Positions 148 through 21,253 of a stretch of DNA of 23,439 nucleotides are shown piece after piece (the stretch's first letter is position 1; each line of letters opens with the position of its first letter). Both the position numbers and the translations under genes were made by a program. This stretch comes from a virus. A model generated the notes under the pieces. That model saw nothing but the letters and a program-made list of their open reading frames with translations. It did no database searches and had not been told where the DNA came from. The stretch covers positions 1 to 23,439 of the IMG/VR virus record IMGVR_UViG_3300025543_000221; one strand, given 5' to 3'.

Positions 148-561
148 ATGATAACCGCAGCAGTGTTATGTATGGCCCTTAACATCTACCATGAGGCTAG
201 AGGGGAACCATTAGCAGGTCAGATAGGTGTGGCACATAGCGTGTTAAATCGTATGGCTGACAGTAGGTATCCCGATACAGCTTGTGAGGTTATAAAGCAA
301 GCTAAGTATCATGGGTGGGACATGATTAACCCTATTAGATACCAGTGCCAGTACAGTTGGTTCTGTGATGGTTTGTCTGACAAGCCCCAAAATGGTAAAG
401 CAATGCTGGAAGCTACTATTTTAGCACAGCACGTATTATCTGGTAAGTCTATTGACATTACCGAAGGTGCTACGCATTACCATGCAGACTATGTACACCC
501 GTACTGGGCAGATGAAATGACCACCACAATTAAGTTGGGGTCACATATTTACTATAGGTAA
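148..561 (+). CDS. Cell-wall hydrolase, SleB/CwlJ family (Hydrolase_2)
   Basis: A 137-aa single-domain protein. The N-terminus carries LNIYHEARGE (residues 11-20) with the presumed catalytic Glu16, followed by GQIGVAHSVLNR (24-35), CQYSWFCDG (67-75), GATHYHADYVHPYWAD (about 106-121) and a terminal HIYYR. These are the conserved blocks of the SleB/CwlJ peptidoglycan hydrolases (lytic transglycosylase or amidase type). There is no signal peptide, so it would need a holin or another route to reach the wall. The gene starts 2 bases after the helicase stop, with no clear Shine-Dalgarno in front of ATG 148, so it may be translated by reinitiation. It is likely a lysis enzyme, though a role at DNA entry is possible. 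The family call is strong; the exact bond cleaved is not visible. Confidence 0.88.
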   Translation: MITAAVLCMALNIYHEARGEPLAGQIGVAHSVLNRMADSRYPDTACEVIKQAKYHGWDMINPIRYQCQYSWFCDGLSDKPQNGKAMLEATILAQHVLSGKSIDITEGATHYHADYVHPYWADEMTTTIKLGSHIYYR

Positions 562-4081: not shown

Positions 4082-4427
4082 AATTATAGATTGGCCTAAG
4101 TATAATTTTATAGATGATTTTGGAGATATGGAGGCAATAATGAGCGAAGAAGAACCTAAAGCACTTGAGACTCAAGTAGGTGGGAGTCACTACCAGAACA
4201 TGAAGATTCAGCCTATAGAGTTCATACAAGCTAACAGGTTATTCTTCTGTGAAGGTAACGTAGTTAAGTATGTCGTTAGGTGGCGTACTAAGAATGGGCT
4301 TGAGGACTTGAAGAAAGCAAGGCATTACCTTGACCTTCTGATTGAAGAGAACACCCCTGTTGCTACAGAACAGGAGACTGCTCTAGCACCTAGGCACACC
4401 AATGAACCAATAGACGGGAATAAATAA
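4074..4427 (+). CDS. DUF3310 protein (family associated with the T7 gp1.7 nucleotide kinase)
   Basis: From ATG 4074 the product is 117 aa. The DUF3310 core runs VGGSHYQ, IQPIEFIQANRL, GNVVKYVVRWRTKNGLEDL and KKARHYLDLLIEE, the usual signature. This family is linked to T7 gp1.7, a nucleoside monophosphate kinase acting on dGMP and dTMP, so a role in dNTP supply next to RNR is plausible but inferred. Start choice is uncertain. GAGGAGG (4058-4064) supports ATG 4074; the in-frame ATG 4065 touches that motif. A second strong site, GGAGG at 4130-4134, precedes ATG 4140 by 5 bases and would give a 95-aa protein starting just before the conserved core. The 3' end overlaps the lysozyme start as TAATG. 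Confidence 0.85.
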   Translation: MNKIIDWPKYNFIDDFGDMEAIMSEEEPKALETQVGGSHYQNMKIQPIEFIQANRLFFCEGNVVKYVVRWRTKNGLEDLKKARHYLDLLIEENTPVATEQETALAPRHTNEPIDGNK

Positions 4428-4867
4428 TGTCACAGTTAGCTAAGATGATTACAGCACATGAGGGTGTAGAGACACACGCTTACAAATGCACAGCCAATAA
4501 GACTACTATAGGCGTAGGGCGTAACATAGACCCTAATGGAGGCATAGGCTTAAGTCAACGGGAGATAGCCTACTTACTAGCTAATGACATTGAGCGTGTA
4601 GAGGATGAACTATCAATAGCATTCCCGTGGACTATTGACTTAATCATGCACTCTCCTGCTCGTTATGACGCCTTGGTTGACATTTGCTTTAACCTAGGTA
4701 TGCCTAGGCTACGTAAGTTTGAAAAGGCTTTACAGGCCTCCTATGACCACAAGTGGGACGAGGCAGCAGACGAGTTTATGGACAGTCGATGGGCCAAACA
4801 GGTAGGCAAGAGAGCAGTTGAGATTTGTGCCATGATTCGTACAGGTGAATATCAGAAGGAATACTAA
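4427..4867 (+). CDS. Endolysin, lysozyme (muramidase) of the T4-like GH24 type
   Basis: A 146-aa glycan-cleaving lysozyme. The N-terminal catalytic region has HEG (Glu12), AYKC (Cys21) and TTIGVGRNID (Thr27 at the third catalytic position). The spacing is Glu, eight residues, Cys, five residues, Thr, matching T4 lysozyme Glu11-Asp20-Thr26 with Cys in place of Asp. This Asp/Cys alternative is known among phage endolysins. The later block ALVDICFNLG is the usual second conserved helix, and SRWAKQVGKRAVEICAMIRTGE closes the domain as in T4-like enzymes. There is no signal peptide or SAR segment, so export would depend on a holin; one lies far away at 17850-18254. It is coupled by TAATG to genes on both sides. 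Confidence 0.92.
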   Translation: MSQLAKMITAHEGVETHAYKCTANKTTIGVGRNIDPNGGIGLSQREIAYLLANDIERVEDELSIAFPWTIDLIMHSPARYDALVDICFNLGMPRLRKFEKALQASYDHKWDEAADEFMDSRWAKQVGKRAVEICAMIRTGEYQKEY

Positions 4868-8252: not shown

Positions 8253-10067
8253 TTATCTAGCTCTTGTACGTGGTGGTAACACCTTACGTGGAGGCCTTGG
8301 CTCAGGAGGAGGACTTGCGTCACCATAGTCAAACAGCCCGTTAGACACTAATCCTGCTTGTATCGGTATTTTAACGCCTTGAGCAGCTATGTCCATTGCG
8401 CTAGGTTGAGCGTTAATATATGCGTTGATAGCCTCGTCAGAAACCTTACCGCTTTGACCTTTATCTAAAGTAATTATATCAGCCCTAGCTCCTTTGTTCT
8501 TAGCTTGTCTATCTTTAACTTTACGAGTTCTTAGATCAGCGTAGATAGGGGGCGTTATTGACATTTCACCATTAGGCAGTGCAGCACCTAACACCTTACC
8601 AAGCACAGGCACTTTCTCAAGGAAGTCATGTACGTCAGATACAAAAGACATGGCTCTTTGATTAGGCAGTATCTTAGTCATTACGTTGATTCCTCCTTCA
8701 ACTACAGCACTACCTACGTGAGAAGAAGATAACCATAAACCATTAAGGGCTACGTCCTCAGCACTCTTGTTAAGCATTACAACACCACTAGGAAAGTCTT
8801 CTTTAGATAAAGACTTAAGATGTTGATAAATAGCTAAAGGGTCTGTTATGTTTTCATCAGCATATAGTTTTTTCATGTAGTTATGTACTTTATTTTTATT
8901 AGTTATAGCGTCACTGCCATGATTTCCTCCAACACCTGTGTTACGCTTAACTACTAGCCTGTTGCCTGTGTTATTACTCATGCCCCATATTTCTTGGGCC
9001 TTGTCAAAAACAAAACCTAAATCAGCATCAGAGGCCACATAATCTGTATCTGTCTTTTTACCTCTTGCGCTTTGAGAAGATAGAGTGTTTTTCTGTTTTT
9101 TAGCAGAGTCTATATAGTTCTGTTTAACTAAAGGTTGCATACCGCCATAAGATACAGACTTAGTGACATTATCAAGAACCTCAGCTATTTTACCCTTGTG
9201 GGCAGTTTGCGCTGTTATGTACTTGTTGTAGTTCATCTGAGCCACTGCCTTTTCCTTGTGGCGATTAGCTACTGCGTGATTCCCTGCGGCTTTTTCTTTC
9301 ATGTACAGAGACATTTCTTTCTTTACTATTTTTTGTGATGTACTATTAATACCATACTTATCATAGAGCGCCCTAGCCTTAGGATTAACAATAGAGTTAA
9401 CACCTCCTGTAAAACCATCTTTAGCCCATGTAGCTGCTCCTGTCAACTTTTGCGCTAAATGAAAAGCTTCTTTTTCAGTTTTAACACCTTTAGTGCCAAA
9501 CCTAAGCAATGTTTGCGTAAGTTGTTTATAATCATCAGGCATATCCTTTTTGTTTTTAATTGAAGGTGTGTAGTGATTAGGTATGTAGTTAGCCGCAGCA
9601 CTCAAAGCTCTCCTTACAGGGTCTATCATAGCTTTAGGAAGACCTAATTCTAACACACCCATACCAGCCTCTATGTTACGTGCGACCCTAGGGTTTTCTT
9701 GTAAGTAAGCTAACCCTCGTTTTGCAATGTCAGTTTCTAATGCTCTATCAGCACCCCAAGTCATTACATCTTTAGCTGCCTCCCCTACCCACGATGGAGT
9801 AGCTAACCCTAATACTGTCCCATAGCCCTCACCTACCGCTTCTCCTCCACGACCTACGTGTCTTAAGGCTAACTCAGCTATATTGATGTCCCCATCGTTA
9901 TAGCGTTGTTCATCCTTAAGAGCTTTAACATTACCCTCTACAACTGTATTCTTTAAGTCATCAAACCGATCACCTAAAGGTTTTTCAGCCTGTATAGGGT
10001 AATTATCAGGTTTATCTAAAGTAAAAGGTTTGTTAGCCCATTCTGTAAACTGACCAAATAAACTCAT
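8253..10067 (-). CDS. Putative internal virion / DNA ejection protein, 604 aa (last gene of the minus-strand arm)
   Basis: A large basic, mostly helical protein with no domain I can name. The N-terminal third contains Gly/Ala-rich stretches (about 72-100), the middle is Lys/Asn-rich, and the C-terminus ends in a proline- and arginine-rich tail (SPPPEPRPPRKVLPPRTRAR). It overlaps the preceding 665-aa gene by ATGA (10064-10067) and ends directly at the bidirectional terminator. In T7-like podoviruses the genes after the tail nozzle encode the ejection proteins gp14, gp15 and gp16, so this and its two upstream neighbours are the best candidates. No lytic transglycosylase motif is visible. The virion role is inferred from context. 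Confidence 0.7.
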   Translation of the reverse strand: MSLFGQFTEWANKPFTLDKPDNYPIQAEKPLGDRFDDLKNTVVEGNVKALKDEQRYNDGDINIAELALRHVGRGGEAVGEGYGTVLGLATPSWVGEAAKDVMTWGADRALETDIAKRGLAYLQENPRVARNIEAGMGVLELGLPKAMIDPVRRALSAAANYIPNHYTPSIKNKKDMPDDYKQLTQTLLRFGTKGVKTEKEAFHLAQKLTGAATWAKDGFTGGVNSIVNPKARALYDKYGINSTSQKIVKKEMSLYMKEKAAGNHAVANRHKEKAVAQMNYNKYITAQTAHKGKIAEVLDNVTKSVSYGGMQPLVKQNYIDSAKKQKNTLSSQSARGKKTDTDYVASDADLGFVFDKAQEIWGMSNNTGNRLVVKRNTGVGGNHGSDAITNKNKVHNYMKKLYADENITDPLAIYQHLKSLSKEDFPSGVVMLNKSAEDVALNGLWLSSSHVGSAVVEGGINVMTKILPNQRAMSFVSDVHDFLEKVPVLGKVLGAALPNGEMSITPPIYADLRTRKVKDRQAKNKGARADIITLDKGQSGKVSDEAINAYINAQPSAMDIAAQGVKIPIQAGLVSNGLFDYGDASPPPEPRPPRKVLPPRTRAR

Positions 10068-12061
10068 AGTTCATTACCTGTAGATTCAGTAGGTTCGTTG
10101 GCTTCTCCTGTGTACTGTGTTATTCTTTTAATAACAACATTTATTTTTGCAACATCACCACTATCTATTGCTTTTTTAAGACCAGCATTAATAGACAACC
10201 ACTCACCCATTGTTTTAGCAGTGCTGGCGGCTTTAGCCATAGCCATAGGGCCAGTAAACAAACCAATAACCGCTGGTAAACTCATGGTATAAGCTGCGGT
10301 AGCCAACAGTGCTCCTTTAACAGCAGTAGCCTGTTGCCCTCCAACAACAAGACCCAACTTAGCACCTACGCTTTTTTGTGTCAGCTCTGCTGTGTTAAGA
10401 ATATTCTTAAAGCGGTTAGTCATTCCATGCCCTAAAACACTGGCTAAATTTTCATGGTTCTTTGCTATCCTTAATTTTTTAGCTAAGGCAGACATGGATT
10501 GCGTAGTTGCAGCTTCTTCTGCTATTTGTTTTTTCATGTACCCTGATCTATAATCATTAAGGATACTCATGTGCTGCTCTTTAGTTATAGTTTTTAAGTT
10601 ACGTGCCTGACCTAAGAATAACATAAACTCTTTATGTTTAGCAGGATTAGAGTACACCCAATCACCAACTTTAGCAGGGTCTTTTTTAGCTACTATACGC
10701 ATTGTATTGCTTTTTAATTTACTGGTTGCTATAGCGTAGTTTTTATTAAGAAAGTCTAACTTGCCTTTTAAAGAAGGGTCTAATTTTTCTGCCGCTTCAC
10801 CCATTATCTTTTCAAGTTTTTTTATCTGTTGGTTAGCGTAATTACCGCCTACGTTACCGATAGTAGTTCTGGCTTCAAAACCTGTACGTTTAAGAGTCCT
10901 GAGTTCTATAAGGTTTTGATTAAGCATTGACATATTAGTCACATCGTCAAGACCAGCAACTAAAGAATTTACCTCATTAACAATAGGATTAGAACTAGGG
11001 GCTTTCTTGTTCTTTCTAGCACCAGCGGCTTTCTCAATACTTTTAACTATGTCTGAGTTATACTGCCTCAAATCTATAGGTATGTTTTTACCCGATTCGT
11101 ATATAGCGTCATACTGTGGTGAGTATTCTTTCCTAAGAGCTTGAGTGCTGTCTGTTAAAACTTGCTGTACGTTCTTACCAAAATCCTCTATAGTAGTAGG
11201 TGTAAAAAGTTCTTCTAAGTTTTTTTGTAAAGCTTTTTCTTGTCTTTTAAAACCCCTATCAAGAGTTTCTTTACCGAATAGACCTACACGACCTATGCCC
11301 TCCATGACGGAAGAGATGTTGGAGCCTGTAGCCTGATACCAACTTAAGTCAGCACCATACTTTTGTAAAATTTCCCTACCTACTTTTACGGCATCATCAG
11401 TAGATTCAATACCATTCAAACGTAAAGCCTTTTTAGAAATAGTACCTAAAGTACCTAAAGCTAAACCTCCGTATATGTCCCACTTAGCTGTGTTAACACC
11501 TTCCTTAAGCGCACTGTCATAATCAACAGCAGTCCCGTTCCATACGTCTTCACCTAATTCACCAAAGAATTGACCTATACCGCTACCACCTGCGCTAGTG
11601 ACTAGCATAGATAACCCTTTAAGGGCGGGATGCCCTACAGGTAACTTAGCTGCAAACTTTGCACCTGCAAGAGCAGAAGGTATTGATGTAATTTCACCTA
11701 ACCATTTAGACATAACAGTGTCTGTAATCTCACCAGCAGTACGCGCGGCACCTAACCCAATGTTGTCAAGGCTTTTAAAAACATTCTCAGTAAGTTCTGA
11801 AAAGTCTTTATCACCAAAACTAGGCGTCATGGTATACTGAGGGTCTGCTATTTGACCTCTGTCCATAAAAGGTAAGGTTTCCACAAAAGAAGGTTCAACT
11901 TGACTTACTTGAGGAACCTCAGTTTCCTGTGGTATAACTTCGGGCTGTATAGCACTCTGTTGCTGCTGTAACAAATACGCTTTTTTTTCTTCGTTAGTAG
12001 GGCCAGTCTCTTCTGGTTTTAGACTTAGTAAGTAGTCTATTTTTTCTTGGTTAGTAGCCAT
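10064..12061 (-). CDS. Putative internal virion / DNA ejection protein, 665 aa
   Basis: The N-terminus has two similar short blocks (EKIDYLLSLKPEETGPT and EEKKAYLLQQQ), then Pro/Glu/Gln-rich linker sequence to about residue 60. Gly/Ala-rich, mildly hydrophobic stretches lie at about 121-170 and 195-208, a long helical charged body fills 210-560, and a strongly hydrophobic segment sits near 575-615. Hydrophobic stretches in an otherwise soluble helical protein suit a virion protein that enters the host envelope during DNA ejection. It is preceded 16 bases away by the 412-aa gene and coupled by ATGA to the 604-aa gene. No enzyme motif is recognised. Function is inferred from position and composition. 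Confidence 0.7.
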   Translation of the reverse strand: MATNQEKIDYLLSLKPEETGPTNEEKKAYLLQQQQSAIQPEVIPQETEVPQVSQVEPSFVETLPFMDRGQIADPQYTMTPSFGDKDFSELTENVFKSLDNIGLGAARTAGEITDTVMSKWLGEITSIPSALAGAKFAAKLPVGHPALKGLSMLVTSAGGSGIGQFFGELGEDVWNGTAVDYDSALKEGVNTAKWDIYGGLALGTLGTISKKALRLNGIESTDDAVKVGREILQKYGADLSWYQATGSNISSVMEGIGRVGLFGKETLDRGFKRQEKALQKNLEELFTPTTIEDFGKNVQQVLTDSTQALRKEYSPQYDAIYESGKNIPIDLRQYNSDIVKSIEKAAGARKNKKAPSSNPIVNEVNSLVAGLDDVTNMSMLNQNLIELRTLKRTGFEARTTIGNVGGNYANQQIKKLEKIMGEAAEKLDPSLKGKLDFLNKNYAIATSKLKSNTMRIVAKKDPAKVGDWVYSNPAKHKEFMLFLGQARNLKTITKEQHMSILNDYRSGYMKKQIAEEAATTQSMSALAKKLRIAKNHENLASVLGHGMTNRFKNILNTAELTQKSVGAKLGLVVGGQQATAVKGALLATAAYTMSLPAVIGLFTGPMAMAKAASTAKTMGEWLSINAGLKKAIDSGDVAKINVVIKRITQYTGEANEPTESTGNEL

Positions 12062-12077
12062 TATTTCTTACCTGTCA

Positions 12078-13316
12078 TTATTTAGCTATCGCTGCTTCAT
12101 AAGCCGCATCTAGTTGTTCTTGCGTATAAGTAGTCGGGTCATTCCAATCAAATACAACTGGATTTAAATCAATACCTTGCCCTAATTGAAGTTTCTTTTC
12201 TTCATACCCACGTTTACCTACAGCTTTTAATTGTGCAATCATAGCCAAGGTTGCCTCAGGGCCGCGATCAGTATTAAGATAACTTTTCTTTAACGATTCT
12301 AATTCTGCTACGGCAGCGGCAGCGCCTGTTATTTCCTTACGATACTGGTTAAATAACATATCAATCTGCGCTGCGGCTGTTGTCTTTCTTGCGTTGTAGT
12401 CAACAGCACCACCAACTAACGGAGTGTCGGGGGATATACCTAGCTTATCTGCCCATTCGCCAACTTTAGCCCATCCTTGTCCTTGAAGTGTAAAATAAGA
12501 AGCATCAAAACTGTCACTTATATCATCTAGGGCTTGTAGATTAGTTTTATTAGCTCTAATTTCTTTTTGCAGCAGGCTTTTTTGTGCTTTAGTTAGCTCT
12601 TGAAACCCTTGTTCGTTGACGTTAACTTCAATAGTCTGACCTGACTTTTGCATTTCCTTTTGCATTTGTTCCATGTTTTCTTTTGACCCTACGGGGAACC
12701 CGTAAGCGTCCCTAACCTTCATAGCTAAAGAACTACTAGCGTTTTGTTCGTCTAAGAATTTATAGCCTAACTTTCTAGCTTCTTTTGCTGCTTCACCTCC
12801 AGACCTTAAAGCTCTTATAACACTATCGTCAACCTGACCAACGATAGCATTTGCAAGTTCATTGTCTGCTTGTTTTTGAGCAGCCACAGTATCAGCTTCT
12901 TTTTTAGCTTCTGCGTCTAAAATCTTCTTATCTTCAATGTCTTGTCGAGCCTGTAAAATAATATCAGCGCCATCTTTAGCGTACTCTGGATTTTTTATTA
13001 AGACATTACCAAAAGCTAACCTTTCCTCAGGAGTTCCCCTGCTTATTGCTTGGGAGTATTCACCCTGTAATCTTTCTTGTTCATCAATTTCAGCTTGACG
13101 TTTATCTAACTCTTCATCCTGACCACCCATAGCACCACCTAAGGCACGACCTAGGCTAGACCCTAGTAAGCTTACTGCTCTCATTTTAGCAGGGTCACGG
13201 GCGCCTTGTGCTGCTTGAGCCATTAGTTGTTGTTGTAAGTCAAACTGAGACTTGTTACGTTTAGCCAGTATGTCTTCAACTGACGGGCCTTGAGTAAATA
13301 AACCTTGCATAGCCAT
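12078..13316 (-). CDS. Putative internal virion protein, coiled-coil rich, 412 aa
   Basis: A helical protein rich in Gln, Ala, Glu and Lys. Heptad-like charged stretches lie around residues 75-95 (KRQAEIDEQERLQGEY) and 125-155 (DIEDKKILDAEAKKEADT), and a further helical region near 215-260 (LTKAQKSLLQKEIRANK). ATG 13316 follows AGGAAG at suitable spacing; a second in-frame ATG two codons later is possible. It starts within 2 bases of the end of the Gly/Gln-rich gene. Size and place between tail genes and the two large ejection candidates suggest a gp14/gp15-like core component. No family is recognised with certainty. Confidence 0.68.
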   Translation of the reverse strand: MAMQGLFTQGPSVEDILAKRNKSQFDLQQQLMAQAAQGARDPAKMRAVSLLGSSLGRALGGAMGGQDEELDKRQAEIDEQERLQGEYSQAISRGTPEERLAFGNVLIKNPEYAKDGADIILQARQDIEDKKILDAEAKKEADTVAAQKQADNELANAIVGQVDDSVIRALRSGGEAAKEARKLGYKFLDEQNASSSLAMKVRDAYGFPVGSKENMEQMQKEMQKSGQTIEVNVNEQGFQELTKAQKSLLQKEIRANKTNLQALDDISDSFDASYFTLQGQGWAKVGEWADKLGISPDTPLVGGAVDYNARKTTAAAQIDMLFNQYRKEITGAAAAVAELESLKKSYLNTDRGPEATLAMIAQLKAVGKRGYEEKKLQLGQGIDLNPVVFDWNDPTTYTQEQLDAAYEAAIAK

Positions 13317-13317
13317 A

Positions 13318-14838
13318 TTATGTTCTTCCTGTCAATAAACCTGTTAACCAACCACTACCGCCAGAAGTACCTAAGAACGAGGAACCTAAGCTAGTGAGGC
13401 CTGTAAGCCAACCATTGTCTTGTACGTTACCTTGTGCAATCTTAGCATCAGCTAACATACGTGCAATAGCGTTCTGTTCTGTACCAAGTGCATAGCTTTG
13501 ATCTAAACCTTGTTGTGTCTGGTTCATACCAGCCTGTGTGAATGGTATACCTGTGAGTGACTGTTCAAGCGCAGGTGCTTGTAGACCAGCAGATAACATA
13601 CCTTGACCACTACCCATAAGGTTAGCGTATTGTTGCTGCTGTTGCTGTTGGTTAGTATTGAACTGATTCAAGTCTAAACCTGCACGTTGCATCTCTTGTC
13701 CAAAGGCATCTTGAGTAGACTGTGCGGCTAACTGTGATAAAGCTTGAGACTGTGCAGCGTTCATACCTAGCATATCAGGATTAAACATACCTGAGTCAGC
13801 ACCAACACCTAAGCCCTCACCAGATAAGCCAAGACCTATACGACCTAAACCTGCCATTTGCTCTAAGTTCTTAGCACGTTGTTGTGCAAAGGCTGGCTCA
13901 AGTAAAGCACTACGCTCACTGAATAAGTCTAGCCCTGCTTGTCGTGGGTCAAAGTTATAATTAAACTCATTAGGAGCCTGTTGTGCTAAGGTAGACGCTT
14001 GACCCATGAGGCCTGTGCCTTGCCCTACTAATGCAGGTAGACCTGAGTAAGCATCAGAGAGTGAAGTTGATAAACCATCACCATCTAATACAGCAGTACC
14101 TGTGCCTGATCTAAAGGTAATAGGCTTGAATGTGCCTCCTGAGCCGCTGTAGTCTCTTGCTCCTCCTGCCATAGGGCCACCAGCGACACCTACTGTACTT
14201 TGTAACATACCATTTCCTCCTGCTCCGTCACCACCTAAGCCTCCCATCATACCACTTGACTGTGCCAGTGAAGATTTCATTTCCATAGGCAATCCAGCCC
14301 ACTGTGATTCAGATATACCCTCTGGTCGCATAGCGTTTAACTGTGCTTCATTAGGACGTCCTTGACCACCACCTATGTAAGCGTTAGCTAACTGGTTATT
14401 CATTTGAGGCTGCCGAGACATTTGCACTTGCTGTGCTGGTGTCATACTGTGCCAAGGGCTATTAGGGTCACGAGAAGCTTCTTTAACATTTAAAGCAAAT
14501 TCGTCTCTTGCTATGTCATTCATCCCATATAGTGATTCATTCGCACCTGCTTTGGCAAAAATAGAAAGAGGACTAAGAGCCGCTTGTAAATAACCGCCTA
14601 AAGTATTAGGCATTCTAGGGCTAAAATCTTGTGCTGCTACCATAGCCTCTGCTAGTGTGGGTTGTTTGTATGAATTAGCAGGTGTACTTAAGTCTTTTAT
14701 TACGCCATTATTATTACCATTTCCTTGAAATTTCGCCCCTTGTCCACTGACACTACCACCGCTTTTATTACTATAACCACCACCGCCTGAGCCGCTGTAG
14801 CCACCATACGAATTACTTTCACCCCTTGGGTCTGCCAT
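13318..14838 (-). CDS. Gly- and Gln-rich virion-associated protein, 506 aa
   Basis: A low-complexity protein from ATG 14838. Residues about 8-50 are Gly/Ser/Asn-rich (SGSGGGGYSNKSGG), the middle is Met/Gly/Gln-rich, and a run of seven Gln lies at 13630-13650. A block beginning FDPRQAGLDLFSERSALLEP and continuing FAQQRAKNLEQMAGLG resembles proteins I recall in marine podovirus structural arms, where function is unassigned. Start choice: AGAGGA (14846-14851) precedes ATG 14838 by 7 bases, and that ATG overlaps the tail-fibre stop as TAATG; the TTG 14856 extension is unlikely. The context between tail fibre and ejection proteins suggests a virion or assembly role. Confidence 0.72.
   Translation of the reverse strand: MADPRGESNSYGGYSGSGGGGYSNKSGGSVSGQGAKFQGNGNNNGVIKDLSTPANSYKQPTLAEAMVAAQDFSPRMPNTLGGYLQAALSPLSIFAKAGANESLYGMNDIARDEFALNVKEASRDPNSPWHSMTPAQQVQMSRQPQMNNQLANAYIGGGQGRPNEAQLNAMRPEGISESQWAGLPMEMKSSLAQSSGMMGGLGGDGAGGNGMLQSTVGVAGGPMAGGARDYSGSGGTFKPITFRSGTGTAVLDGDGLSTSLSDAYSGLPALVGQGTGLMGQASTLAQQAPNEFNYNFDPRQAGLDLFSERSALLEPAFAQQRAKNLEQMAGLGRIGLGLSGEGLGVGADSGMFNPDMLGMNAAQSQALSQLAAQSTQDAFGQEMQRAGLDLNQFNTNQQQQQQQYANLMGSGQGMLSAGLQAPALEQSLTGIPFTQAGMNQTQQGLDQSYALGTEQNAIARMLADAKIAQGNVQDNGWLTGLTSLGSSFLGTSGGSGWLTGLLTGRT
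13630..13650 (-). repeat. Polyglutamine codon tract (seven CAA/CAG codons)
   Basis: Read on the minus strand, 13650 to 13630 is seven CAA/CAG codons in a row inside the Gly/Gln-rich gene. Mixed codons make simple slippage less likely than in a pure repeat. Confidence 0.8.
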
Positions 14839-15641
14839 TATGCTGTCCTCTTCCAAAAGTATACGACAATATACGGCTGCATAATGTCGTGTGTGTGGGC
14901 TTGTCCACCGCCTTCATAATCAAATTCTGCGTTCCTGGGGTATGAGTTGGGATGCCCCGCTGTTACAGAATCCGCAGCCCCATCTGGGTTGCCTGTACCT
15001 GCCGTACCTGTCCATCCGTGAGCGTGACTAGGTATCTGAGCAAGTGTAAGAGTATGTGAGTCAGTTGTTGCACCACCTGTATTACCAGCAGTATAACCTC
15101 CACCAGCACCAAGCATTACACGACCAGCACTAAAGGCTGCCCAAGTACCTACGCCCATTAAAGTAGCTAAGGATGAAGCACTGTAAGCTGTTGTTGTAGT
15201 AAATATTGAACCTACAGGATATACTAAAGCGTTAACTACGGCTGCTGTAACTGGTGGTATTACTAGTGCTGCTACGGCAGCATCTGCGTACGCTGTAGTA
15301 GCTACCTGTGTAGTGTTGGTACTAGCAGACGCTGTAGGAGCCGTAGGGGTGCCTGTGAGAGCAGGTGAAGCCAGAGGTGCCTTAGCGGTAATACCAGCTA
15401 CTATAGCGGCCTGTGTGAACGCTGTGGTGGCTATCTGTGTGCTATTGGTAGAAGAGGCTGCTGTAGGTGCTGCTGGTGTACCTGTCAGCGTAGGGCTACT
15501 TGAGTTAGCTTTAGTGGCTACTGCTGTAGCAATGTTTGTAAACTCGTCATCAATCTCAGTACCACTTACAGTCTTGAGAGGATTACCTGTGGTTAAGGCA
15601 TCCTTTGTTGCAAAGTTTGTTGACTTAGTATAATTGGACAT
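14838..15641 (-). CDS. Tail fibre protein with tandem repeats and collar-type C-terminal domain
   Basis: A 267-aa fibre. The N-terminus (about 1-45) contains VSGTEIDDEFTNIATAVATK, a typical phage fibre lead segment. Two copies of a 32-residue repeat (SPxLTGTPxAPTAxxSTN, then TQxATTAxxxAA) lie at residues 49-80 and 92-123. The C-terminal domain starts YPVGSIFTTT, then GTWAAFSAGRVMLGAGGGYT, LTLAQIPSHAHG and a final HTHDIMQPYIVVYFWKRTA. The paired His-x-His motifs and closing block are typical of fibre tips in which metal ions bind along a trimer axis. AAGG-type ribosome binding sites precede ATG 15641. It sits between the nozzle gene and the Gly/Gln-rich gene, not at the end of the structural arm as in T7. 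Confidence 0.88.
   Translation of the reverse strand: MSNYTKSTNFATKDALTTGNPLKTVSGTEIDDEFTNIATAVATKANSSSPTLTGTPAAPTAASSTNSTQIATTAFTQAAIVAGITAKAPLASPALTGTPTAPTASASTNTTQVATTAYADAAVAALVIPPVTAAVVNALVYPVGSIFTTTTAYSASSLATLMGVGTWAAFSAGRVMLGAGGGYTAGNTGGATTDSHTLTLAQIPSHAHGWTGTAGTGNPDGAADSVTAGHPNSYPRNAEFDYEGGGQAHTHDIMQPYIVVYFWKRTA
14846..14851 (-). promoter_or_regulatory. Ribosome binding site for the Gly/Gln-rich protein
   Basis: AGAGGA on the minus strand ends 7 bases before ATG 14838 and lies inside the tail-fibre gene. It supports the ATG over an upstream TTG at 14856. Confidence 0.55.
15273..15497 (-). repeat. Two tandem 32-residue fibre repeats (period 129 bases)
   Basis: Copies lie at 15402-15497 and 15273-15368, separated by an 11-codon linker, and encode near-identical SPxLTGTPxAPT and TQxATTA blocks. 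This is common in fibre shafts and likely arose by duplication. Confidence 0.8.
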
Positions 15642-15643
15642 AG

Positions 15644-17200
15644 TTAAAGTACCTTACCTTGTTTGGCGTAAATTGATAGTTTCTGTAGGCTCATTGCAGT
15701 ACCATTAATATCAGTAGTAAAACCTATTTGAATTATGTTACCTGCTCCTTGTGCTGGTGATTGTTGATCGTTGATTAAGACTGAGCCAGCATATTCTGAT
15801 AAGCCGTATTCAGCTAAACCATACTCAAACACACTTCCAGCCTCTAAAGTAAACGTCTGTGAAAAGAAAATTGGACTATACTCATAGCCTACCTTAAGTG
15901 CAAAAATTTGACCAGAAGCGCCTACTGTGGTAGCGGCTAACTTTTTAACAATCTTATTTGTGTTAGGCATTTCTAAATCAAAGTAGTTACTAAAGTAAGC
16001 CATCTCATACTTCTCTCCATTATCTTGATAGCCCCTGTACTTTGCTATACCATCAGGTTTTGCAAAAAGAAGTTCAGAGTCTAGTGACAAGAATCCTTTA
16101 GGTGTTAACTCAGGCCATACTGTAACCCTATAACTTCCGTCCTGTAAAGTTTGCCTTGTGTCAAACACAAAGGTTTGTTTAGTGGCTGGCATAGTTAATA
16201 AGTAGAAAGCATTAATAGGAGAATAGACTGTTTTAACATCAGCCAGTATTTCACTACGGATTGCTTGTATAATGTCATCACGTATGTTCTTAGAGATGTC
16301 TCTCATAGGCTGAGATTTCTCTTGTACTGTACGATTCAATGAACGTACACCTGTGTTACTTAAGAACAAGATGTCTTCACCAGTGTTCTGTACGGAGTCT
16401 CTAGCTATACAACCTACACCTTCGATAACTTCCACTAAGGTTAAACTTGAGGTAGTCATACCTGCATTAAAGTTATTACCATCTGAGTAGATAATAATGT
16501 TATCAGTACAGAATATAATCAAGTTGCCGTTGTGTGCGCCTATAGCAACAATTTCATCAGAACCTTGAGTAAGTACAGAAGATATATCAAGAGTACCAGC
16601 AGTACCCCCATGCCACTTAAAACCACTCAGTACGTCCGTAAAGTAAACTGTGGTCTTGTTAGTTGTTGTGTCTGCGGCCCATAAACGACCATAGGCTGCT
16701 AATACTGTGTTGGCACTGGGCGCAGTACCTGTTGTATGGGTGTGTGTAGCTATAGATTCAAAAGTATCCGCAGCACCCGAGTTAGTATACACAAGTGGTA
16801 AGTAGCCACGTTGAAAGAAGTAATGATGATCATTTAATGTAGCTGTTTGCCAATTACCTGCTGCTATTGTGTCAGTAGTGGACGGGGTTAAAGTTACTAG
16901 GTCTGTAAGTCCTTTGTAGAACTTGTCAACACTGAATGACAATAATGTATCAGCACCTGTGATTTCTTTAAAGTTAGACACACCTAGTAAGTTAACACCT
17001 ACGTTTCCGTTAGCTGAACCATCCTTAGCATTACTTATGGTCTGCCAGCCCTTACGTGAACCTAGGCGACCAAACTTATCAATGATACAGTTGTCTGCGT
17101 GTAGTGCAAAGCCTTGCTGTAGCGTTACACCTGATTCCTGAGTGTTTAACCCATAGAATGCAGGTGCTGCTATAGAGGCTGCCTGTAGTTGTTTACCCAT
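15644..17200 (-). CDS. Tail tubular (nozzle) protein B, gp12-like
   Basis: A 518-aa beta-rich protein from ATG 17200, directly after the tail tube protein A gene, the order seen in T7-like podoviruses (gp11, gp12). The N-terminus has APAFYGLNTQESGVTLQQGF and ALHADNCIIDKFGRLGSRKGW, a pattern familiar from podoviral nozzle proteins (aromatic-rich, with a GxRxGW-like block). Later it has repeating beta segments such as IGAHNGNLIIFCTDNIIIYS and EDILFLSNTGVRSL that fit a propeller-like domain. It would form the hexameric tip of the short tail. It is shorter than T7 gp12 (794 aa) but near the size of marine homologues. The TTG 17218 alternative start is less likely because GGAGG is placed for ATG 17200. 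Confidence 0.78.
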   Translation of the reverse strand: MGKQLQAASIAAPAFYGLNTQESGVTLQQGFALHADNCIIDKFGRLGSRKGWQTISNAKDGSANGNVGVNLLGVSNFKEITGADTLLSFSVDKFYKGLTDLVTLTPSTTDTIAAGNWQTATLNDHHYFFQRGYLPLVYTNSGAADTFESIATHTHTTGTAPSANTVLAAYGRLWAADTTTNKTTVYFTDVLSGFKWHGGTAGTLDISSVLTQGSDEIVAIGAHNGNLIIFCTDNIIIYSDGNNFNAGMTTSSLTLVEVIEGVGCIARDSVQNTGEDILFLSNTGVRSLNRTVQEKSQPMRDISKNIRDDIIQAIRSEILADVKTVYSPINAFYLLTMPATKQTFVFDTRQTLQDGSYRVTVWPELTPKGFLSLDSELLFAKPDGIAKYRGYQDNGEKYEMAYFSNYFDLEMPNTNKIVKKLAATTVGASGQIFALKVGYEYSPIFFSQTFTLEAGSVFEYGLAEYGLSEYAGSVLINDQQSPAQGAGNIIQIGFTTDINGTAMSLQKLSIYAKQGKVL

Positions 17201-17202
17201 AT

Positions 17203-17853
17203 TTAGTAAGCCTCCCAAATCAGTTCCTCAGGGTGCTTGGCTGCATCAAGAGCAATAGCATCAGATAGGTAAACAGAAGCAAGAGCCTTAGCCGATACTG
17301 CTGACATACCTCCGTCCTCACCACGTTCCTCAAGGGCCATAGCGTAGGCTAAAGTCTGCACAGGTAAGAAAGGAACTTTAACAATGTCATCATCATTAGT
17401 GACATCAGGTGATCTTTTAATGATGTTAAAGAATAGCTCATAGACACCATCAGGCTTGGGGTACACATCTATCTGAGTGTCACCTGAGTTACTTAACCCG
17501 TTGAACACGTAGTTCTGAGGTGCTCCTGTTACTGGCGTGTTATTAAGGTATACATTATTAAACCAGTGTGGTGTCTGGTACTTCATAAATGTATCGCTTG
17601 TGTTGTTGATAGCCTCTAAGAGTGTAGACTTATCACCAAAGTCAGTAAGAACATAGTTAAACACATTTGCTTGTGTAGTCACAGTCATAGTCTCACGTAG
17701 GTTAGACCAACCCCAAGCACTTTCCACCATCTCTACAGCGTCACGTACAAATAAACCAATAAGCTTAGAATAGCTGTTTTCATTAATTGAATCTACTTCT
17801 CGCTCACGTAACCTTATGAGTATGTTGTTAACTGTTTGCTTATATGTTTTCAT
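17203..17853 (-). CDS. Tail tubular protein A (head-tail adaptor), gp11-like
   Basis: A 216-aa protein similar in size to T7 gp11 (196 aa). It begins with a helical segment (TVNNILIRLREREVDSI), then SKLIGLFVRDAVEMVESAWGWSNLRET, a pattern typical of podoviral adaptors, where an Ala/Val-rich helix with a WGW or W..L block follows. The middle is beta-rich with DVYPKPDGVYELFFN, and the end is a long helix rich in Ala and Leu (LPVQTLAYAMALEERGEDGG). It would form a ring under the portal, joined to the nozzle encoded next. It overlaps the holin gene by ATGA (17850-17853). Confidence 0.82.
   Translation of the reverse strand: MKTYKQTVNNILIRLREREVDSINENSYSKLIGLFVRDAVEMVESAWGWSNLRETMTVTTQANVFNYVLTDFGDKSTLLEAINNTSDTFMKYQTPHWFNNVYLNNTPVTGAPQNYVFNGLSNSGDTQIDVYPKPDGVYELFFNIIKRSPDVTNDDDIVKVPFLPVQTLAYAMALEERGEDGGMSAVSAKALASVYLSDAIALDAAKHPEELIWEAY
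17211..17215 (-). promoter_or_regulatory. Ribosome binding site for the nozzle protein
   Basis: GGAGG on the minus strand, 10 bases before ATG 17200, inside the last codons of the tube A gene. It supports the ATG over the TTG at 17218. Confidence 0.5.
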
Positions 17854-18254
17854 GTGGCTTTACCATTTAATTTCTCTACTGTTCTAAGACCTGCAAGGCC
17901 AAGCATTGCTAACGTAAGTTCAAGCATAGCGTCTAAGGGTAACTCAGGGCTACCTAGCTCTGGTGCTACCCATTGTAGGATAGGGTTAATAACAAATGCA
18001 AACAAGAAGCCTAAGCCACATACCCACATGAGAAAGGGTCTAGCTCCTGCAACAAAGGTAGACCTGTGATTAGCCTGTACCTTCATAATCTCTGCTTGCA
18101 TCATAGAGGGCTGCATAGCTAACTTCTGCTTAAGTAGTTCGCCTTGTGCTCTCTCTTCATCTGATGTAAACACATTGTCTATAATGTTACCAATGGCTTC
18201 TATAGGCTGTGCAACAGCACTACCGCCACTGAATAAACTACTTAATATGCCCAT
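17850..18254 (-). CDS. Holin, three-TM family (GTA_holin_3TM-like)
   Basis: A 134-aa protein. The N-terminal part has IGNIIDNVFTSDEERAQGE (about 22-40), then an amphipathic stretch with EIMKVQANHRSTFVAGARPF (55-74). Hydrophobic segments follow at about 73-96 (FLMWVCGLGFLFAFVI) and 106-124 (LDAMLELTLAMLGLAGL). This layout, with FTSDEERA and H.S.FVAGxRPF blocks before two or three membrane helices, is the signature of the 3TM holin family first described in gene transfer agents. It would make the membrane hole that frees the muralytic enzymes. AGAGGT precedes ATG 18254. It is the only holin seen in the window. Confidence 0.9.
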   Translation of the reverse strand: MGILSSLFSGGSAVAQPIEAIGNIIDNVFTSDEERAQGELLKQKLAMQPSMMQAEIMKVQANHRSTFVAGARPFLMWVCGLGFLFAFVINPILQWVAPELGSPELPLDAMLELTLAMLGLAGLRTVEKLNGKAT

Positions 18255-18267
18255 GTTGTACTACCTC

Positions 18268-18525
18268 TCACCATTTTTCACGATTGGCCCAATAAGCCGC
18301 TGACATCTTACCTTTGGCTATGTTCTTGCCATGCCTAGCTTTAAATGAGTCAGATCGTTTTGTTTTAGTCTTATCTCCAGTAACTCCCTGTTGACCAAAG
18401 CGTATAGTCTTAGTTACTCCACCTTCTTTAGCTACCACTACATGAGACTTCTTAGGGTGGCTAGGTGTACGCTTAGGTTTGTTGTAAGCTGTTAGTCCTA
18501 GTTTAGTTAATTTAGCATCTGGCAT
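18268..18525 (-). CDS. Small highly basic conserved-type phage protein, 85 aa
   Basis: A Lys/Arg-rich protein with KTIRFGQQGV (about 39-48), SFKARHGKNIAKGKMSAAYW (59-79) and REKW at the end. Proteins with the same KxIRFGxQG then SFxARHxxxxxKxxxSxxYW pattern occur in many phages and large viruses (a DUF family I cannot number with certainty), with no settled function. The charge suggests nucleic-acid contact or a virion component. It starts at ATG 18525 sharing TAATG with the upstream TM protein, and lies 13 bases before the holin. Confidence 0.78.
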   Translation of the reverse strand: MPDAKLTKLGLTAYNKPKRTPSHPKKSHVVVAKEGGVTKTIRFGQQGVTGDKTKTKRSDSFKARHGKNIAKGKMSAAYWANREKW

Positions 18526-18692
18526 TACATATCTCCATTAAAGTATAACCAAGCAGCAAATGCACCTGCACCTATAATCCACATTAGCTTCTTAGTCACT
18601 GATTTACCTACGGCAAGATAGAATCTGTCATACGCTTTATCAGCAGCCAGTTCAGCTATCTCTTCTTTCTGTTTTTGAGTTAAGTTTTCCAT
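18525..18692 (-). CDS. Small single-TM protein, 55 aa
   Basis: The minus-strand ORF runs from ATG (18690-18692) to a TAA sharing bases with the next start (TAATG at 18525). The N-terminal half is charged and helical (MENLTQKQKEEIAELAADKA). The C-terminal half has a hydrophobic segment of about 16 residues (LMWIIGAGAFAAWLYF, 37-52). No cleavable signal or lipobox is seen. It sits one gene before the basic 85-aa protein and two before the holin. It could be a lysis accessory such as an antiholin or a membrane-associated virion protein; the sequence does not decide. Confidence 0.68.
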   Translation of the reverse strand: MENLTQKQKEEIAELAADKAYDRFYLAVGKSVTKKLMWIIGAGAFAAWLYFNGDM

Positions 18693-18694
18693 GC

Positions 18695-19135
18695 CTAGTA
18701 GTATCCTTTAATATAAATAGCTGCACCTAACAAACCAGCCATAATAACAATAAACCCTAAGCCTACTTTTATAGCTATGGATAAATTATCTTGTAATGCT
18801 TTAGCTCTTGCTGCTCTTTGGCGTATTTCCGCTTGTTTAGTTTCTTTTAAGTCTCTAGTGTACTGTGCTTTAAACTTAAGAAAGTCTTGATACCCTTGTA
18901 GACGTTGCTTGTTCAACATGAACTTAAGTTCTTCTTCCTGTCTAGCTAGTTGCTCCTTAGCTTGAAATGCTTCTAGTACGTTACCTGAGCCGTTAGCCAC
19001 TTGCTTCTGTATTGTCTTCTCAGCACCAAAGTATTTACCTAGGGCTGCTCCAGCATCTGCGATCTCTCTCCCGTTACTCAGGGTAGTCTTGATTACCTTA
19101 AATGCTGCATTAGCTATTGCTAATTCTGCTAACAT
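18695..19135 (-). CDS. Coiled-coil protein with C-terminal TM segment, 146 aa
   Basis: From ATG 19135 the protein begins MLAELAIANAAFKVIK. It has a helical region with GAALGKYFGAEKTIQKQVA, then a long charged coiled coil (about 55-115: EAFQAKEQLARQEEELKFML and following). A single membrane segment lies near the end (about 122-140: VGLGFIVIMAGLLGAAIYI) with a short IKGYY tail. ATG 19141 would add two residues but sits only 2 bases from AGAGG, whereas 19135 is 8 bases away. A coiled coil plus one TM recalls inner-membrane spanins (Rz), but those have the TM at the N-terminus, so the match is poor. It is recognisable as a recurring marine-phage protein, function unknown. Confidence 0.75.
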   Translation of the reverse strand: MLAELAIANAAFKVIKTTLSNGREIADAGAALGKYFGAEKTIQKQVANGSGNVLEAFQAKEQLARQEEELKFMLNKQRLQGYQDFLKFKAQYTRDLKETKQAEIRQRAARAKALQDNLSIAIKVGLGFIVIMAGLLGAAIYIKGYY

Positions 19136-19311
19136 ATCCATAACCTCTTTGAATACTGATGCTCTGTAAGCTCGTAGGGAGCCATAGGAGGCCTTATAAA
19201 CCTATAGTCATACTCACGTATTACCTGAGGCTCTACGACCAGCACAGAGCCTTGTGGAGCCTGTGAGGGGCATTGGTGAACAGGATACGCTTCCGATACA
19301 GTAGACCACAT
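19129..19311 (-). CDS. Small proline-rich protein, 60 aa, unknown function
   Basis: The start at 19311 overlaps the preceding gene's stop as TGATG, which implies coupled translation. The product has eight prolines, two cysteines (Cys14 and the terminal Cys60), a short beta-prone stretch SVLVVEPQV and an aromatic/charged end EHQYSKRLW. There is no hydrophobic N-terminal signal. It overlaps the 146-aa gene at its 3' end. I recognise no family. It is kept as a gene because of its overlaps at both ends and the dense packing; without those it would be weak. Confidence 0.52.
   Translation of the reverse strand: MWSTVSEAYPVHQCPSQAPQGSVLVVEPQVIREYDYRFIRPPMAPYELTEHQYSKRLWIC
19144..19148 (-). promoter_or_regulatory. 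Ribosome binding site for the 146-aa coiled-coil protein
   Basis: AGAGG on the minus strand, 8 bases before ATG 19135 and 2 bases before ATG 19141; the spacing favours the downstream ATG. Confidence 0.5.
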
Positions 19312-19538
19312 CAGATAGACCTCATATCTTTAACACAGAAAGCTGTAATAGTCTTTGTAGCTTCTACCTTAACTACTGCAAGTCCTACCATCGGGCTAAC
19401 CACAGGCTCGTAGCCTCCTATTGTACCTACACGTAATAACTCTTTCCTACAACCATCAAGTGTGCTGTAGCTAGACATTATCGTAGGTACTTGAGGTTCA
19501 CCACTGGCTAACATTGTTGCTAACACGATAGCCCACAT
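19311..19538 (-). CDS. Small protein with hydrophobic, signal-like N-terminus, 75 aa
   Basis: It starts at ATG 19538, sharing TAATG with the upstream 46-aa gene, and ends in TGATG with the 60-aa gene. The N-terminus MWAIVLATMLASG could be a short signal peptide or weak membrane anchor. The mature part would have two cysteines (Cys30, Cys68) that could form a disulfide if exported, and beta-prone stretches (LAVVKVEATKTITAFCV). No lipobox cysteine is seen. Similar short secreted-looking ORFs occur near holins in marine phages, but I know no function. An exported periplasmic role is inferred. Confidence 0.6.
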   Translation of the reverse strand: MWAIVLATMLASGEPQVPTIMSSYSTLDGCRKELLRVGTIGGYEPVVSPMVGLAVVKVEATKTITAFCVKDMRSI

Positions 19539-19678
19539 TACTTCTTAGCTTTCTTATGACTTAAAGGCTTACTAGAAGGAGTATGCTTTGCGCCTGTCAT
19601 AACTTTACCTGACGTATGCTTGTGTGTCTTTCCTGTGTATGCTTTACCATTTGGTAAGTAATGTGTAACACCTTTCAT
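19538..19678 (-). CDS. Tiny basic protein, 46 aa (MKGVTHYLPNG type)
   Basis: ATG 19678 to TAA 19538-19540, with AAGGA upstream inside the end of the 28-aa ORF. The protein has alternating His, Lys, Thr and Gly (MKGVTHYLPNGKAYTGKTHK, then HTSGKVMTGAKHTPSSKPLS) and ends HKKAKK. The internal pattern of G-K-x-Y/H-T-G blocks suggests short repeats. I recall the same MKGVxHYxxxG and GKTHTxSS layout in small cyanophage and marine-phage ORFs, function unknown. The TAATG overlap with the next gene and the resemblance support it as real. Confidence 0.68.
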   Translation of the reverse strand: MKGVTHYLPNGKAYTGKTHKHTSGKVMTGAKHTPSSKPLSHKKAKK

Positions 19679-19680
19679 AA

Positions 19681-19767
19681 CTAGTATCCTTTTTTCTTTG
19701 GTTTCTTAGTGGGTTTTGATGGTGGACGACCTTTCTTGGTTCCGTATGTACCCTTACCTTTTGGCAT
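19681..19767 (-). CDS. Tiny basic protein, 28 aa (MPKGKGTYG type)
   Basis: ATG 19767 to TAG 19681-19683, preceded by AAGGAG 8 bases upstream, one of the clearest ribosome binding sites in the arm. The product MPKGKGTYGTKKGRPP then SKPTKKPKKKGY is almost all Lys, Gly, Pro and Thr and contains an AT-hook-like GRPP. Short MPKGKGTYG..GRPPKKK ORFs recur in phage genomes as I recall. It could be a nucleic-acid-binding or virion peptide, but this is unproven. Length makes it easy to miss; the ribosome binding site and neighbour spacing are the main support. Confidence 0.62.
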   Translation of the reverse strand: MPKGKGTYGTKKGRPPSKPTKKPKKKGY

Positions 19768-19782
19768 AGTTATTCTCCTTAA

Positions 19783-20103
19783 TTAAACAATCGCTGCCCT
19801 TGCTGCTGCTCTGGCTGTAGTCACATCGGCTGGCACTGCTACTGCTGTCTCAGCATGGCGTGTGATGTACCAATCTGTAGACTTTAGATACTCAAGTGAC
19901 TCAGAGTTAATTGATGACTGAGCATTGGCTGCTATCTCTGCATCAGTGTACTCAGGAGCAGGAGTATTACCCTCTGCAATCCACTGTAGTACATCTTGAC
20001 AGTCTCGGTTGGCAGGGTCATTGGGTACGCCCATGTTTCCGTTGACTAGCCAGCCAGACTCGTTAAGTTTGCAGGAAGTAATCCATGCTGTGTTGTTTTC
20101 CAT
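19783..20103 (-). CDS. Tail fibre assembly / tail-associated protein, 106 aa
   Basis: From ATG 20103 the protein starts MENNTAWITSCKLNESGWLV and has YTDAEIAANAQSSINSESLE, then YLKSTDWYITRHAETAVAVP and an Ala-rich end. The segment from about residue 72 (LEYLKSTDWYI.R.AE....VP..V...R.AAR) is the recurring C-terminal block of small phage tail proteins thought to help fibre assembly. It directly follows the 378-aa fibre gene (13 bases). The frame is open 25 codons further upstream, but AGGAG (20111-20115) is spaced for ATG 20103 and the upstream part overlaps the fibre gene. Confidence 0.75.
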   Translation of the reverse strand: MENNTAWITSCKLNESGWLVNGNMGVPNDPANRDCQDVLQWIAEGNTPAPEYTDAEIAANAQSSINSESLEYLKSTDWYITRHAETAVAVPADVTTARAAARAAIV

Positions 20104-20110
20104 GTTATAG

Positions 20111-20115
20111 CTCCT
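20111..20115 (-). promoter_or_regulatory. Ribosome binding site deciding the 106-aa start
   Basis: AGGAG on the minus strand lies 7 bases before ATG 20103 and begins just after the stop of the 378-aa fibre gene. It argues against the longer frame starting at 20178. Confidence 0.6.
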
Positions 20116-20116
20116 G

Positions 20117-21253
20117 TTATAGTTCTGCGCTAAATGAAACACCAGCAGCAGCGTTACCAGTTTGGCACATGCCAGCAAAACCTGCCGTACTGTCTGTATT
20201 TAATGTTATATCTAATCGGGCAGTATTAGTGGTTACGTCAGAAAATCCACCTATTCCGTTAAAGTTTGGACCTACACCGCCAGCGTAACAAACATAGTAA
20301 TTTGATCCTGATACAGCAGAACCAGTAGGTGCTGCTCTCATTGTTACAGGAAAATCTACATATCCATACGCTTCTCTTGTAGCATAGATTGCCGCTAAAC
20401 AAATAAATCCAGCACCTTTAATATGCTGGTAAAAATAACGCTGACACAACGCTAACTCTTCCCCGTAGCTCCGATGCTCAAAGTCTGTGGCTACTGAGCC
20501 AGTTTCAAGTTGTACGCCTGTGATGTTTAGAGTACGGGCAGTGCTGTCAAAGAAAGATGTGTTAGACGCACTAACTCTTGTATTGCTTGCTGCGGCTGAC
20601 CATGTGTTACTTGCAAAAGTACCTGATGTCATTGTAGTGCCAGTGTGAATCCATATAAATAAATACAGGGATAAAGCGTTGTCATCATTATAAGCACCTG
20701 TAGTATCAGGCACATAAGTTAATGTCACCTTGTTCCAACTTGTAGTCACACTAAACGTCTGACCATTATGTCGGTTGTTGTCTGCATCGTAAAACTCAGC
20801 AGTATAAGTTGCAGCAGCATTACCTTTTACATAGAAAGATAACGTCATGGACTCTGCACCCGAAGTACCTTTCTTGAGTTGCTGTAAGTCTTGCCCTTCA
20901 AATTTATATATTAGATAAGATTGTTCACCAACAGCAATGCTTGTATCTGCTGTAGTGCAATCTAGTTTAAGGGAGTTAGCAAATCCAGCAGGGCCATCCG
21001 AATCTTGAGACATCGTTAAACGCCCCGCAGTACCACCCGTACCAAAAGCCCATCTATCTAATAAATAAGTTGTTGCATCAGCACCCAGCCCTGCACTTGA
21101 CGTACCTCTCTGTGCTATTTGCATGGAACCATTCAGAAGCAAATTCTTCCTGCCAGCCCTAGCTGCGGTGTCTCCTGCTGTGATGTTAGTTTGCAGACCA
21201 GCCAGATCACCTTGCAGCCCTGTGTAGTCCGAGTTTTCTCTTGCCTTGGTCAT
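20117..21253 (-). CDS. Tail fibre / receptor-binding-type protein with jelly-roll-like domain, 378 aa
   Basis: The N-terminus is a short helical region (LQGDLAGLQTNITAGDTAAR), then RKNLLLNGSMQIAQRGTSSA and YLLDRWAFG. A carbohydrate-binding-like beta domain follows with SLKLDC, LSFYVKGNAAATYTAEFYD, WNKVTLTYVPDTTGAY and LNITGVQLETGSVATDFEHR, then SYGEELALCQRYFYQH. A distinct C-terminal domain runs from about 290 to the end. The NLLxNGxMxIAQRG to FEHRSYGEELALCQRYF layout is recurrent in phage fibres, where the variable C-terminus is the likely receptor-contact part. AGGAG precedes ATG 21253 at good spacing. Binding to a host glycan is inferred. Confidence 0.85.
   Translation of the reverse strand: MTKARENSDYTGLQGDLAGLQTNITAGDTAARAGRKNLLLNGSMQIAQRGTSSAGLGADATTYLLDRWAFGTGGTAGRLTMSQDSDGPAGFANSLKLDCTTADTSIAVGEQSYLIYKFEGQDLQQLKKGTSGAESMTLSFYVKGNAAATYTAEFYDADNNRHNGQTFSVTTSWNKVTLTYVPDTTGAYNDDNALSLYLFIWIHTGTTMTSGTFASNTWSAAASNTRVSASNTSFFDSTARTLNITGVQLETGSVATDFEHRSYGEELALCQRYFYQHIKGAGFICLAAIYATREAYGYVDFPVTMRAAPTGSAVSGSNYYVCYAGGVGPNFNGIGGFSDVTTNTARLDITLNTDSTAGFAGMCQTGNAAAGVSFSAEL

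Follow-up and report, generated by a model that had tools for sequence, protein, structure and literature searches.

A stable core of small genes with mobile basic satellites forms a candidate lysis module upstream of a 3TM holin in a marine podovirus

Seven small genes directly upstream of a 3TM holin in a 23,439-nt viral sequence (IMG/VR record IMGVR_UViG_3300025543_000221, positions 1 to 23,439; hereafter the window) consist of a stable core, g75-g60-g146-g55, accompanied by mobile basic satellites, g28, g46 and g85. From genome context we favour, with modest confidence, a role in lysis: the block would form the upstream half of an extended lysis cassette in a lytic marine podovirus, with g55 and g146 as putative holin accessories.

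The block lies on the minus strand and reads from 19767 down to 18268. It begins with two basic micro-proteins, the Lys/Gly/Pro-rich g28 (19681..19767; 28 aa, MPxGKGTYGxKxGRPP...) and the Lys/His/Gly-rich g46 (19538..19678; 46 aa, KGVxHYLxNGxxYxGxxHK...TGAKHTxSSKxLxH). These are followed by g75 (19311..19538), a predicted small α/β domain; g60 (19129..19311), a 60-aa Pro-rich protein that is the partner gene of g146; g146 itself (18695..19141 from its first Met), a helical, basic protein with a C-terminal TM segment; g55 (18525..18692), a 55-aa protein with an amphipathic N-terminus and a short C-terminal hydrophobic segment; and g85 (18268..18525), an 85-aa basic protein with the pattern SFKARHxKNIAKGKxSAAYWAxxxKW. 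The holin follows at 17850..18254 on the same strand, and is a GTA_holin_3TM protein scoring 60.1 bits against PF11351 (cut-off 24.8) and matching phrog_3427 'holin' with E 4.4e-35. The first-pass annotation had described seven small ORFs chained into this holin, and all seven were found with matching junctions: a 2-nt gap between g28 and g46, TAATG between g46 and g75, TGATG between g75 and g60, an overlap of g60 with g146, a 2-nt gap between g146 and g55, TAATG between g55 and g85, and a 13-nt gap between g85 and the holin. No promoter-like or terminator-like match was detected within 17700-20300, which is consistent with transcription of the block and holin as one unit.

All seven ORFs are genuine genes under purifying selection and not chance ORFs, since every one of them has homologues in IMG/VR and pooled pN/pS values among these relatives, computed on sequence pairs 80-98% identical, lie between 0.15 and 0.24 (g28 0.24, g46 0.21, g75 0.24, g60 0.16, g146 0.17, g55 0.15 and g85 0.18). 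None of the frames decays; independent decay would have counted against the block. The window gave no megablast match to isolated phages.

Three scans of IMG/VR were performed, the loci were dereplicated by shared sequence and every gene was mapped, and the 32 clusters with at least 1.5 kb on either side of g146 were judged for linkage. All on the same strand as g146, these clusters carried g60 in 32 cases, g75 in 22, g55 in 18, g85 in 17, g46 in 15 and g28 in 5. When g55 was used as the anchor, g146 and g60 were each present in 18 of 22 clusters. The gene order g75-g60-g146-g55 was nearly constant, while g85, g46 and g28 occurred either upstream or downstream of the core. A holin of the window type was present in 6 of the 32 g146 clusters. 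The co-occurrence proposed for the whole block with its holin was therefore borne out for the core, but not for the three basic genes or for this type of holin. Because g28, g46 and g85 shuffle or go missing and the window-type holin is found in so few clusters, the block is a stable core with mobile basic satellites and not one fixed seven-gene system around this holin. In one relative (L126, 5767-6396), a 209-aa gene of a different kind is inserted between g55 and g85. Two other loci (L034, 613-714; L042, 8447-8539) carry 30-33-aa zinc-ribbon-like ORFs with a CxxC...CxxC pattern directly 3' of g146.

Relatives without the window-type holin carried M15 peptidase endolysins after g146 (PF13539, 41.6 bits; PF08291, 41.1 bits). 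Other such relatives had, right after g146, TM proteins of phrog_2524 and phrog_38283, or XhlA-like proteins that combine a coil with a C-terminal TM segment. Lysis context was counted in the 29 clusters with at least 3 kb of downstream sequence. By a strict definition, a window-type 3TM holin or an M15 endolysin lay within 4.5 kb of g146 in 19 of these, rising to 27 when the TM-bearing, holin-like phrog_2524 and phrog_38283 proteins and a more distant 3TM-like protein were counted. The phrog_2524 and phrog_38283 families have no assigned function, and their members at the holin position (L027, 6341-6793; L111, 4081-4515) are candidate new holins.

Homologues of g146 were also identified in isolated phages, namely roseophages and the Pelagibacter phage Mosig, with the window protein matching that of CRP-212 at E 7e-12. 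Roseophage CRP-227 encodes g146, a PF11351 holin (44.8 bits), maturase A and maturase B, and this g146-holin-maturase stretch corresponds to the T7 gene 17.5-19 interval. The g146 and holin matches in CRP-361 are approximately 80 nt apart. In CRP-118, g146 leads into a CHAP endolysin bearing a hydrophobic tail, and then come a TM-coil protein and maturase A. In CRP-171 it stands between a TM-coil protein and a two-TM protein, the latter being followed by a u-spanin-like lipoprotein and then by maturase A. In CRP-406 it is preceded by a coil-TM protein and followed, after two further genes, by an amidase and a TM-coil protein overlapped by a lipoprotein. Behind g146, CRP-4 encodes g85, then a Cys-pair protein and a pair of basic micro-proteins. 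In CRP-212 and CRP-235, g146 follows a Lys/Gly micro-protein and a short Cys protein and precedes a g85-type protein and a basic micro-protein; the terminase genes come immediately afterwards. ICBM2 has an amidase endolysin, a u-spanin-like lipoprotein, a TM-coil protein, a g85 homologue and a Lys-rich protein in a row. Mosig is an exception, as its g146 homologue adjoins a DUF7220 two-TM protein and no recognised lysis gene, and in CRP-125 no g146 is annotated beside the coil-TM gene and the 3TM holin. The earlier suggestion of a lysis or envelope complex is thus supported for the core, by its gene neighbourhoods both among the IMG/VR relatives and across several lineages of isolated phages; the basic proteins may instead be minor virion parts, the other earlier suggestion.

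Two annotations in these phages merit revision. The annotated start of CRP-171 gp44 (L156, 4194-4544) is too late, since the frame extends further upstream and yields a 116-aa protein whose sequence begins MKLRLLVSLSLFLVMAGC; the extended product has a C-terminal TM segment and is u-spanin-like, as a lipoprotein. In CRP-406 (L007, 9690-9941), an unannotated 83-aa lipoprotein-like ORF overlaps the TM-coil gene gp17, an arrangement that resembles an overlapped i/o-spanin pair.

The longest ORF of g146 starts at 19141 and encodes 148 aa, and a second Met at 19135 gives the 146 aa previously assigned. This second start is probably the true one, because it is better spaced from the Shine-Dalgarno sequence AAAGAGG and is invariant across the family. 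A TM segment is predicted at residues 126-144, and the modelled structure is all-helical (helices 3-22, 27-50, 55-79 and 83-147), with the TM segment included in the C-terminal helix. Basic residues placed before the TM segment suggest that the body of the protein is cytoplasmic. The homologues of CRP-227, Mosig, CRP-406, CRP-212 and CRP-118 matched phrog_32327 with E values from 2.7e-4 to 1.7e-15, and the g146 of the window itself gave no match to this PHROG model at E 1; the homologues that matched are divergent, and phrog_32327 has no assigned function. Foldseek with the g146 model returned uncharacterised relatives only, and a profile search of solved structures with g146, g85, g75 and g60 gave nothing credible. 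Among bacterial genomes, g146 turned up in four MAG contigs only, two of the MAGs sharing one partial match at 40%, and these hits do not point to a host. Identity of g146 as a spanin was ruled out, since it has no lipobox or signal and CRP-171 encodes g146 together with a separate u-spanin-like gene.

The g60 gene lies beside g146 in every one of the 32 clusters, and in 41 of 44 cases the BLAST matches of the two genes share an identical 10-nt overlap. The g60 protein ends in a conserved W-x-C or W-x-x-x-C. As three g60 sequences without the usual g146 overlap still keep the Trp and the terminal Cys, comparison of these sequences indicates that the ending is also a feature of the protein, beyond what the overlap would fix. 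A programmed frameshift fusion of g60 and g146 was rejected, as no slippery heptamer was seen at the junction and three clusters are without the usual overlap. Searches for g60 in isolated phages returned chance-level matches only, and the same was true of g75 and g55.

The first-pass annotation had described one of the small proteins, g75, as signal-like, which now appears doubtful. Its start contains a 10-residue uncharged hydrophobic stretch that is modelled by AlphaFold2 as core strand 1 of an α/β domain (overall pLDDT 88.7; pLDDT of this block 90). All 47 distinct g75 sequences have at least two Cys, and C30 and C68 are invariant in a 17-sequence alignment. The model indicates that g75 is probably a folded domain rather than a signal-peptide protein, and the invariant Cys pair hints at an oxidising location. 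Foldseek with g75 gave no match in the PDB at E 0.001, and its BFVD matches are uncharacterised small phage proteins. In most g146 clusters, g75 is directly before g60.

The g55 alignment has a mean column identity of 72%; the first half of the protein is conserved and amphipathic, the second half short and hydrophobic. The hydrophobic stretch is approximately 16 residues long and was missed by a 19-residue TM scan; a membrane location is likely. In the 29 clusters with downstream sequence, g55 was present in 14 and an XhlA-like coil-plus-TM gene in 8, with both together in none (hypergeometric P 0.0015, an optimistic value as the clusters are related to each other and not independent). Judged from genome position, g55 and the XhlA-like gene look as though they replace one another in one functional slot. 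Homology of g55 to XhlA was ruled out, as hhalign against the XhlA-like slot-holders gave a probability of 0.6%. Searches with g55 and g146 gave no match to PF10779 (XhlA), and the coil-TM genes sharing the slot scored at most 18.2 bits against this model, with a cut-off of 34.7.

The remaining three proteins are basic. Acidic residues are absent from both g28 (pI 10.7) and g46 (pI 10.5). The first-pass annotation knew of no family function for any of the seven genes; g85 does match a described family, phrog_7595, which has no assigned function, at E 7.6e-32 over residues 3-85. Homologues of g85 were found in 49 isolated phage records, and phrog_7595 is widespread among marine phages. CRP-235 gp49 (L157, 3459-3698) is also of the g85 family (phrog_7595, E 2.6e-19) and has Cys residues in an ARHKC...YWSC motif where the window g85 has none, together with a weak, sub-cut-off match to DUF5754 (21.8 bits); it is possibly a zinc-binding form of the g85 domain.

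Two candidate lytic enzymes are encoded in the window, both far from the block and on the opposite (plus) strand: a GH24 Phage_lysozyme as endolysin candidate at 4427..4867 (PF00959, 54.6 bits against a cut-off of 22.3; phrog_7 endolysin), and a SleB-type cell-wall hydrolase as second candidate at 148..561 (PF07486, 76.3 bits against a cut-off of 27; phrog_938 endolysin). A lipobox scan of the window and of a 39.9-kb relative (G001) found no credible spanin lipoprotein, the poor candidates being judged spurious. The minus-strand late region of this relative encodes the terminase large subunit, portal, scaffold-like protein, major capsid protein and tail fibres, and continues with a fibre assembly gene, the block, the holin, neck adaptor, hub, fibre and large proteins without PHROG matches. 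This order places the block after the fibre genes and before the holin and neck genes. Within the window, four large late proteins (604, 665, 412 and 512 aa) at 8253-14856 had no PHROG match and lie where internal virion proteins or ejection proteins would be expected. The best PHROG match of a hub-like protein at 15644-17218 is labelled 'amidase', and head closure Hc3 was also matched; the 'amidase' label looks like annotation carry-over.

The same genes could be explained without a shared role in lysis. The interval between the fibre and neck genes may be a mixed storage site, where independent small virion-associated, regulatory and lysis genes have piled up with no common function. The shifting positions and absences of g28, g46 and g85 fit this picture, as do the unrelated 209-aa gene inserted in L126 and the Lys-rich micro-genes of several unrelated families found in similar places in CRP-4, CRP-212 and CRP-235. 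However, independent accumulation does not predict that g60 and g146 would be paired in every cluster with a near-constant overlap, that the order g75-g60-g146-g55 would be kept almost throughout, or that the g146 family would retain lysis neighbours in unrelated phages, and we regard this explanation as unlikely, though far from negligible. We think it more improbable still that the virion or its ejection apparatus contains g146, g55 and the basic proteins as minor parts, with g146 a membrane-active helical protein delivered with the DNA and g85, g46 and g28 bound to that DNA. The proteins are indeed basic, the set directly precedes the terminase genes in HMO-2011-type phages, and g85 weakly matches (E 0.0035) part of phrog_220, a family labelled 'minor head protein and DNA pilot'. 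Nevertheless, g146 in Autographiviridae roseophages has holin, endolysin and spanin-like genes as its neighbours, and, judged by position, the expected place of internal virion proteins in the window is already taken by the large late proteins.

The lack of a credible spanin lipoprotein in the window and in its 39.9-kb relative raises another explanation, that g28, g46 or g85 are disruptins which break the outer membrane in place of the missing spanin. Spanin-less phages can employ cationic peptides, such as the phiKT disruptin (PMC12819732), and g28 and g46 are free of acidic residues with pI values above 10. However, the known disruptin is an amphipathic helix (PMC12819732) and g28 and g46 are rich in Pro, Gly and Thr; ICBM2, which has a u-spanin, also has similar basic genes; and many relatives are without g28 and g46. 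We consider a disruptin role very improbable.

Under the favoured reading of an extended lysis cassette, the block would be a late-gene module flanked on one side by the tail-fibre genes and on the other by the holin and neck genes. Both g146 and g55 (the latter with a segment too short for the 19-residue scan) are encoded adjoining the holin, and their products would sit in the inner membrane via C-terminal anchors, with helical bodies in the cytoplasm. The 3TM holin would open the hole, and g55 and g146 would promote or time its formation, as XhlA does for XhlB. Once the hole had formed, the lysozyme of 4427-4867 would reach the cell wall, and the hydrolase of 148-561 may cut it too. Because the g146 ribosome-binding site lies within the g60 reading frame, synthesis of g60 would be tied to that of g146 at a constant ratio, and g60 is the likely partner of g146. 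The basic proteins g28, g46 and g85 would be cationic accessories that travel with the cassette, for which nucleic-acid binding, a place in the virion or outer-membrane damage are possible roles.

The closest known parallel is the XhlA-XhlB pair (gp24.1/gp26) of PBSX and SPP1, both members of which are required for lethality (PMC6316719). There too a small protein with a C-terminal TM segment adjoins a multi-TM holin, and in relatives of the window g55 takes the place of an XhlA-like gene. We propose this likeness as one of function only, with no sequence relation. Unlike PBSX and SPP1, the phages described here are marine phages of Gram-negative hosts, the cassette adds g60 and g146, and the holin is of the 3TM type. 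The window also resembles GTA_holin_3TM modules, as its holin is a PF11351 member above cut-off and g146 precedes a PF11351 holin in CRP-227. In the openly accessible literature found, g60, g146 and g55 were neither described in PF11351 modules nor named anywhere. The lysis row of ICBM2 with its g85 homologue and the g146-g85 row of CRP-4 are similarities to the cobaviruses (Zobellviridae), whose TM genes near the spanin and endolysin have already been noted, unnamed, as potential holins or antiholins (PMC6775973). The cobaviruses differ in that no sequence homologue of g60, g75 or g55 was found in isolated phages, and that no spanin was found in the window. A description of Autographiviridae roseophages states that several lysis genes were identified, and the words 'holin' and 'endolysin' are absent from it (PMC11092137).

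More broadly, we tentatively raise the possibility, to which we give less than even weight, that the g146 superfamily (phrog_32327), joined in this clade by g60, constitutes a class of phage lysis accessories not recognised before. Its members would be helical membrane proteins with a C-terminal anchor that cooperate with several unrelated holins, and the class would be common to podoviruses of the window type, Autographiviridae, Zobellviridae, HMO-2011-type phages and one myovirus of the Kyanoviridae. The lysis genes of the dominant marine phages are mostly unannotated. Tying phrog_32327, g55 and phrog_7595 to lysis modules would give a testable function to families present in many marine phage genomes, and may provide an example, from phages of Gram-negative hosts, of multi-component holins that bear comparison with XhlA/XhlB.
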